From positions 1,197,030 to 1,261,029 of the forward strand of contig NZ_LR792632.1 in assembly GCF_902827225.1 (NCBI RefSeq): 64,000 nucleotides of DNA, read 5' to 3'. The stretch is from Methanocaldococcus lauensis. Its GTDB lineage: Archaea > AGJL01 > Methanococci > Methanococcales > Methanocaldococcaceae. A model generated the notes under the pieces. It was not told the origin of the DNA. It did not search any database and saw nothing but the letters and a program-made list of their open reading frames with translations. Both the position numbers and the translations under genes were made by a program. This document shows, piece by piece, positions 12,766-44,486 of the stretch (positions are counted from its first letter, which is position 1; every line of letters begins with the position of its first letter).

Positions 12766-12831
12766 CCATAGGGCTCCGCCCTATTGGGATACCCGGGATG
12801 CATTGCCTCGCAATGCTCGGCAATGCCTCTT
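12766..12831 (-). repeat. hairpin element copy a (CRISPR-like head missing)
   Basis: These 66 bases are identical, in reverse orientation, to 13474-13539 inside the CRISPR array. They contain the two hairpins of the element: CCATAGGGC/GCCCTATTGG, closed by TCC, and GCATTGCC/GGCAATGC. The part of the element that resembles a CRISPR repeat is absent; the homology stops at CCTCTT, after which the sequence is TTTCATAAT. The copy lies directly behind the aCPSF1 stop codon, and on the plus strand the second hairpin is followed by CTCTTTTT. It forms an inverted pair with the array copy, bracketing the CRISPR leader and first repeats. Confidence 0.85.
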
Positions 12832-12839
12832 TTTCATAA

Positions 12840-13210
12840 TATCTTTTCTCTCGCTAAAAATTGTTATTTTTTAATTTAGAGGATTTTAATTTAATATTTT
12901 TAAATTTTAGGGGATTTTATCCACTTTCGGAGGATCTTCTATTTTGATTAATTTGAATAATTAAGTTTATTAAATTATTGGGATTTTTTTGATATTTTAG
13001 TAGTTTATTTTTATCTCTAATTTTCCCCGATGAATAAATTGATATAAAAAATTTTAAGAATTTTTAGGGAAATAAATAAAAATAGAAAAGTTTATATATA
13101 AGTTCGGAGGTATATAAATAACAAGGGTTACTGACCCTCCAAACTATAACCCCCCAACAAAGAAGCATAATAAAGTAATTTTAGTCCTTAATCTCAAAAA
13201 ATTATGCCCT
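12840..13210 (+). promoter_or_regulatory. CRISPR leader region with TATA box
   Basis: About 370 bases of AT-rich, gene-free DNA ahead of the first repeat, as expected for the long leader of Methanocaldococcus arrays. A strong TATA box, TTTATATATA, is at 13091-13100; a transcript would begin near 13125, about 85 bases before repeat 1. The segment at about 13126-13160 is richer in C (ACTGACCCTCCAAAC, ACCCCCC) and unlike the rest. The repeats end in GATGGAAA, which fixes the direction of transcription as plus and supports this side being the leader. No open reading frame of note is present. Confidence 0.65.
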
Positions 13211-13570
13211 GTCTAAAATCAGACCCCTAAGGGGATGGAAAATTGCAGCAATGAGCTCCTTTTCAGATAATATTGATTCGTCTAAGTCTAAAATCAGACC
13301 CCTAAGGGGATGGAAATAAACCACAACCTAAGCAAACCAAACTAAACTTCTTAGATGGTCTAAAATCAGACCCCTAAGGGGATGGAAATAACTTTCCATA
13401 AAAATCATTTCCTCTTTACTACCCGTTTTAACTGTTTAAAATCAGACCCCAAAGGGAAAAATGATTTTAATTTAAGAGGCATTGCCGAGCATTGCGAGGC
13501 AATGCATCCCGGGTATCCCAATAGGGCGGAGCCCTATGGGTGTAAAATCAGACCCCTAAGGGGATGGAAA
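13211..13570 (+). CRISPR. short CRISPR array: three perfect, one near-perfect and one broken repeat
   Basis: Perfect 31-base repeats lie at 13211-13241, 13286-13316 and 13358-13388. Each begins GTCTAAAATCAGAC, continues CCCCTAAGGGG and ends ATGGAAA. Spacers are 44 bases (13242-13285), 41 (13317-13357) and 45 (13389-13433). At 13434 a fourth repeat starts but keeps only about 22 of the first 23 or so bases before turning into the hairpin element. A fifth repeat, differing by C to G at position 3, occupies 13540-13570 and ends the array. Two palindromes, GTCT/AGAC and CCCC/GGGG, lie inside each repeat. The 3' GATGGAAA matches the usual crRNA 5' handle of type I or III systems. No cas gene is in the window. 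Confidence 0.9.
13434..13540 (+). repeat. hairpin element copy b, within the CRISPR array
   Basis: A 107-base element. Its head (13434-13456) is a CRISPR-repeat look-alike, GTTTAAAATCAGACCCC then AAAGGG. An AT-rich link (13457-13473) joins this to the body, with hairpin GCATTGCC/GGCAATGC (13479-13505) and a second stem, CCCAATAGGGC/GCCCTATGGG (13517-13540). It runs directly into the last CRISPR repeat, sharing its first G. It is nearly identical to the unit at 44379-44486 (about seven differences), and its body is identical to 12766-12831. No open reading frame and no obvious target duplication are present. Confidence 0.85.
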
Positions 13571-13635
13571 TTTTTATATATTCTTTTATGTATGTTTTTC
13601 TTTCTTCAACATTTATTTTTTATTGTTTTCATTTT

Positions 13636-44301: not shown

Positions 44302-44486
44302 CCCCAATGCATTATCTCGCTTTGCTCGATAATGCCTCTTAATTTAATATTATTTCCCCATTGGGGTCTGATTTTAAACCCATAGGGCTCCGCCCTATTG
44401 GGATACCCGGGATGCATTACTTCGCTAACGCTCAGCAATGCCTCTTAAATTAAAATCATTTTTCCCTTTGGGGTCTGATTTTAGAC
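44302..44486 (-). repeat. tandem hairpin elements at an orphan site (copy c)
   Basis: On the minus strand a full 108-base unit (44486-44379) begins GTCTAAAATCAGACCCC, runs through the two hairpins and ends CCCTATGGG. It is followed at once by a second, truncated unit (44378-44302), TTTAAAATCAGACCCCAATGGGG and one hairpin. The full unit differs from the array copy (13434-13540) at about seven positions, clustered in the first hairpin. In the truncated unit that hairpin is GCATTATC/GATAATGC instead of GCATTGCC/GGCAATGC. The rest of the gap 44170-44571 is AT-rich and shows nothing else. Confidence 0.85.

Follow-up and report, generated by a model that had tools for sequence, protein, structure and literature searches.

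CreTA and crRNA-mimic units contain degenerate CRISPR repeats, and in CreTA such a repeat is paired with an insert that is not a spacer. CreTA-type mimics also have a spacer-like core directed at a regulatory target, and a small toxin linked to it. The unit described here, which we call the tail unit, has the same pairing. It differs in that it lies at the tail of an array and in that its core is a palindrome dispersed throughout the genome. REP/BIME sequences resemble this core as intergenic palindromes found in mosaics; to our knowledge they do not make target duplications, whereas the duplication made by the core is clear. The small mobile repeats ERIC, RUP, YPAL/RU-2 and RPE have been reviewed (PMC2229807). 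Like MITEs and these repeats, the core is short, hairpin-forming and dispersed, but its duplications (30-77 bp) are far longer than usual and, by eye, it has no terminal inverted repeats. YPAL has no TA at its termini; it contains internal inverted repeats and makes a variable target duplication of 3-26 bp (PMC2229807). The core is like YPAL in all of these properties except the length of the duplication.

A 2005 paper on M. jannaschii reportedly describes many palindromic elements that fall into three groups. Those elements and the core are both palindromic and dispersed, occur in the same genus, lie at gene ends and are fused to genes. Judged by these shared properties, the core is probably one of them. 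About 26 core matches were found in G004, the genome that we take to be M. jannaschii. The 2005 paper (Suyama, Lathe & Bork 2005, FEBS Lett 579:5281, cited in PMC2229807) dealt with palindromic repeats that have coding potential. The papers that we searched described no palindromes at CRISPR array ends, no 40-60-bp duplications for the M. jannaschii elements and none of the 2005 families by name. New here are the long target duplications, the recurrent capture at array ends and the spread between arrays.

The window, meaning the whole stretch of 64,000 nucleotides that was analysed, comes from a Methanocaldococcus chromosome of 1.53 Mb (G000:C1:1197030-1261029). Its array and the associated features are as follows.

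12766..12831, minus strand: inverted core copy, 66/66 identical to 13474-13539, at the upstream (outer) edge of the leader
12846..13210 (approximate), plus strand: CRISPR leader, common to all nine leader-bearing chromosomal arrays of the genome
13211..13571, plus strand: CRISPR array of five repeats, starting at 13211, 13286, 13358, 13434 (variant) and 13540
13434..13456, plus strand: head, the penultimate repeat with its 5' part kept and its 3' handle GGATGGAAAT gone
13457..13475, plus strand: AT-rich link AAAAATGATTTTAATTTAA, candidate copy of the handle and the start of the trailer
13476..13539, plus strand: mobile core, GAGGC...CCCTATGG, 64 bp (about 65), the same core as in headless copies, with an exact CCCTATGG right edge
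13479-13505 (approximate), plus strand: hairpin 1, within the mobile core
13517-13540 (approximate), plus strand: hairpin 2, within the mobile core
13540..13571, plus strand: final CRISPR repeat, putative right copy of the duplicated target; element-free arrays end in one such repeat and often the same trailer
44307..44486, minus strand: array relic of two tandem head-and-core units (only hairpin 1 in the second), with no leader and with the trailer flank kept

The leader matches the chromosome at nine places with 87-100% identity, each match reaching the first repeat. A sequence-only reading of this DNA had described a fourth repeat that is altered and then passes through a link and two hairpins into the fifth repeat, and both the coordinates and the fold bear this out. 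The fourth repeat (13434) reads GTTTAAAATCAGACCCCAAAGGG, followed by AAAAATGATTTTAATTTAA where the handle GGATGGAAAT is expected, and CCCTATGG of the core abuts the fifth repeat without a gap. The stretch 13434-13540 is the last, leader-distal unit of the array, a position that the sequence-only reading had left unmentioned. Its RNA fold has a z of -3.8, and none of 200 shuffles was equally strong. In Rfam at the gathering threshold, the hairpins match no family; the only matches are to the repeats (CRISPR-DR39), tRNA and rRNA.

The same reading had reported a second copy near 44379-44486. This copy exists: it lies at 44363-44486 on the minus strand with 94% identity, and part of a third copy occupies 44307-44379. 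Its standing as an independent dispersed element did not hold up, since over 1,981 bp the flank on its trailer side shares 97.6% identity with the corresponding side of an intact G005 array (L206); the opposite side is unmatched. We therefore describe 44307-44486 as an array relic. The reverse case also occurs: two lone units in G005 (L100, L101) have trailer flanks 95-97% identical to those of intact arrays in the window's genome (L057, L061). Relics in both directions indicate that arrays were lost or rearranged and that the tail was left behind.

Eleven places in the window's genome match the unit at E < 1e-27, which excludes chance as the origin of the repeated unit. Ten of these lie at an array end, inside an array or in a relic, and the sole exception is the inverted copy upstream of the leader. 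With array orientation set by the leader, eight of nine oriented arrays in this genome have a tail made of head, link and two hairpins, followed by a final repeat unless truncated. Two of the eight (L056, L057) have an extra hairpin block ahead of the last repeat, and one (L064) has a further internal copy of the unit. The ninth array (L063) lacks the unit and closes with an ordinary repeat, after which comes the shared trailer. The tail unit was also found in seven of nine arrays, one of them partial, in G005 (Methanocaldococcus sp. SG1, LR792634), in 11 of the 17 arrays with readable tails in G009, and once in the fragmented genome G010. Arrays that lack it end in one repeat and often the same trailer, and such arrays sit beside unit-bearing ones in the same genomes (L063, L204, L205, L207, L210, L212). 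A T-rich trailer follows the last repeat whether the unit is present or absent. A plasmid search with the unit as query gave zero matches.

Outside arrays, the core occurs by itself. Of 14 Methanocaldococcus genomes, 11 have headless matches, covering only query bases 31/38-106, with up to dozens per genome, whereas G003, G008 and G012 lack the element. Weaker matches were found in two genomes from a different genus within the order. Matches that start at query base 1 were limited to G000, G005 and G009, plus one in G010, and every headed copy examined belongs to an array or to the relic of one. The sequence-only reading had proposed that the array contains a small, dispersed, non-autonomous element. 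This is upheld, but its assignment of the head to that element is not: copies elsewhere without a repeat-like head, which that reading had itself named as a refutation, are the norm. We rejected the head as a part of the element because headless copies dominate and the headed copies outside arrays are relics. The head is not an accidental join either, since head and core are how most arrays here end, and they are inherited and copied as a unit.

The target of the insertion was examined at 48 non-array copies by comparing the left and right 90-bp flanks of each, with re-paired flanks as the control. Twenty of the 48 own flank pairs scored above the 99% control, compared to an expected 0.5 and a maximum of 5 in 2000 re-pairings. 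The aligned direct duplications were 30-77 bp long. They started a median of 49.5 bp from the core (range 37-90), and their right edge lay 0-4 bp from CCCTATGG. At L135, the 35-bp duplication is perfect, and the orthologous sites in G002 and G006 have one target copy and no core. The same empty state was found for L151 (42-bp duplication) at its G006 site and for L134 (50-bp duplication) at its sites in G011, G001 and G006. Each duplication examined runs across a stop codon, a start codon or an operon junction, which leaves the genes whole. The other 28 copies showed no significant duplication, perhaps due to decay. As in MITEs, the core is short, dispersed and without an encoded protein of its own, and it duplicates its target on insertion, as seen at 20 of 48 copies and in the three empty-site comparisons; GAGGC at its left edge and CCCTATGG at its right are, by eye, not inverted copies of each other. 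At the gene end occupied by L151, other palindromic inserts are present in G004 (L226) and G011 (L227), with the gene end again duplicated. A single insertion mechanism may serve several types of element.

The head of the tail unit starts 42 bp from the core, which is inside the range seen for dispersed copies, and the head is therefore most simply a copy of the duplicated terminal repeat. In the window, it would be the left copy. The sequence-only reading had offered two options, a repeat captured by the element or a repeat used as its target, and a duplicated target comes close to the second. In G009, the repeats read CAGGCCCCAAAGGGG or CATGCCCC and the head is the same kind of sequence. In G005, four arrays have the head variant CCCTAAGGGG in common while their own repeats read CCCCTAAGGGG, so the tail unit is copied as a block, with a head that derives from the repeat. 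The missing handle of the left repeat may reflect decay of the terminal repeat, and without it the head would no longer be cut by Cas6. When the link was aligned to the trailer, most variants did no better than shuffles (p 0.05-0.9). The putative duplication in the window's lineage can accordingly be followed over the repeat only.

Arrays in G011 and G001 belong to a different repeat family (GTTAAAATCAGACCGTTTCGGTATGGAAA), and several of them end in palindromic modules that have the same right edge as the core. The flanks of one such module in G011 (L337) form a 41-bp direct duplication, 39 positions of which are identical, covering the degenerate terminal repeat and continuing into the trailer; the handle is absent from both copies of this repeat. 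No other case shows as clearly as L337 that an insertion has duplicated an array tail. These independent tail insertions in two other species support the reading of the head as a duplicated terminal repeat. The palindromic tail module was absent from the tails of the 16 G004 arrays examined, and about 19 arrays examined in G006 gave only one weak match (L369), which is probably due to chance.

The history of the tail unit was followed at one chromosomal site shared by three arrays, L058 (G000), L098 (G005) and L104 (G009), whose trailers are 96-98% identical. Each of these arrays has an element with the loop type usual for its own genome, and the mean distance between elements is 0.074 within G009 versus 0.179 between G000 and G009. 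Ordinary spacers of orthologous arrays almost all differ, with one shared by L058 and L098, yet the tail unit stays, showing that it outlasts the neighbouring spacers. Spacer duplicates occur both within and between arrays, which points to frequent recombination among arrays. The tail unit itself appears to have spread by recombination or conversion. Spacer 1 of the window array (13244-13285) is identical to spacer 1 of L064, and its spacer 2 to spacer 3 of L061, pointing to recent exchange between these arrays. In G005, spacer blocks are duplicated inside L205, L206 and L094, the block in L205 being eight consecutive spacers.

Taken together, we think it likely that a dispersed palindromic element inserted at an array end, duplicated its target including the terminal repeat, and was then copied from array to array. 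A non-autonomous, two-hairpin palindromic element of about 65 bp would have entered an ancestral CRISPR array at its leader-distal end and duplicated about 40-60 bp of the target. If the duplicated stretch held the terminal repeat, the insert would come to sit between two repeat copies, with the left copy becoming the head with its decayed handle and the right copy the array's last repeat. This duplication appears to have taken place in the lineage of the window's own genome. Since arrays within a genome exchange sequence, the head, core and last repeat could then have spread to most arrays, and the tail unit would stay uniform inside each genome as the spacers turn over. We infer that the unit has no role in immunity. 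On this reading, the duplication begins precisely with the repeat's first base, which would be a coincidence unless this boundary is preferred. Insertion of the core inside the last spacer, with the adjacent repeats as ready-made flanks, would look similar, and since the link was not recognisable as a trailer copy in this lineage, it stands as an alternative.

The unit could instead be present in most arrays through selection rather than passive copying. It would then mark the array end, whether as a transcript end, a 3' shield for the last crRNA, or a two-hairpin RNA joined to a handle-less repeat. This is consistent with the presence of the unit in most arrays of three genomes, the independent gain of palindromic tails in two other lineages, its persistence beyond that of adjacent spacers, and a head that has lost the handle required in a processed crRNA. 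Also, across 68 distinct cores, the stem of hairpin 1 stays paired through changes on both sides. However, the dispersed copies keep the same pairing, so it is not specific to arrays and does not argue for an array function, and two-sided changes could arise from hairpin-templated repair. The same genomes hold arrays without the unit, the G004 and G006 arrays examined lack it apart from the weak L369 match, concerted evolution accounts for its spread, and the T-rich trailer follows the last repeat regardless of the unit. We therefore regard such a function as unlikely.

Acquisition of hairpin DNA by Cas1-Cas2 as an over-long spacer, with the repeat duplicated as in normal acquisition, would account for the two flanking repeats and for a right edge that meets the first base of the repeat exactly. 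We consider this very unlikely, since acquisition is normally leader-proximal and the unit is leader-distal, the insert is about 80 nt compared to a median spacer of 39 nt, and the left repeat lacks its handle, so that the insert is not a spacer-length sequence between two full repeats. Moreover, at sites unrelated to CRISPR this core is flanked by duplications that are both long and variable, and the duplication at L337 extends past the repeat into the trailer. The explanation preferred by the sequence-only reading, that a dispersed element has a CRISPR-repeat mimic for a head and homes to arrays, is one to which we now give almost no credence. Head and core do move together from array to array, and CCCTAAGGGG in the four G005 arrays is not their own repeat. 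Nevertheless, there were zero headed copies outside arrays or relics among those examined, compared to dozens of headless ones, and the head in G009 is that species' own repeat sequence.

The tail units show that palindromic elements have repeatedly landed, or been held, at CRISPR array ends, and that arrays within a genome evolve in concert at their tails while their spacers turn over. Target duplications of 40-60 bp are unusual for an element so small. They account for its entry into gene ends and operon junctions with the genes left intact, and they point to an integration reaction that is open to identification.

Palindromes were also seen on the leader side. At the spot upstream of the leader that holds the inverted core copy in the window, palindromes are present in L060, L063, L099, L108, L204, L215 and L216. 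With inverted palindromes upstream and the tail unit at the other end, some arrays are bracketed. Bracketing was discarded as a general rule because only about one quarter of arrays have a palindrome upstream of the leader. A speculative and rather improbable idea is that palindromes are drawn to, or kept at, leader-distal ends as caps that shape transcription, crRNA processing or recombination between arrays, and that the second, inverted copy at the outer edge of the leader, present in some arrays including that of the window, brackets the array and may aid its moving or reshuffling.

Two contigs gave minor observations. On a 5142-bp contig of the window's genome (G000:C2), positions 335-600 (L065) contain a leader-like sequence (74%) followed by the degenerate repeat GTATAAAATTAGACCCCAAAGGGG. 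The terminus of contig G009:C12, at L211, reads CTGTCTCTTATACACATCT, which is presumably a sequencing adaptor left in the assembly.
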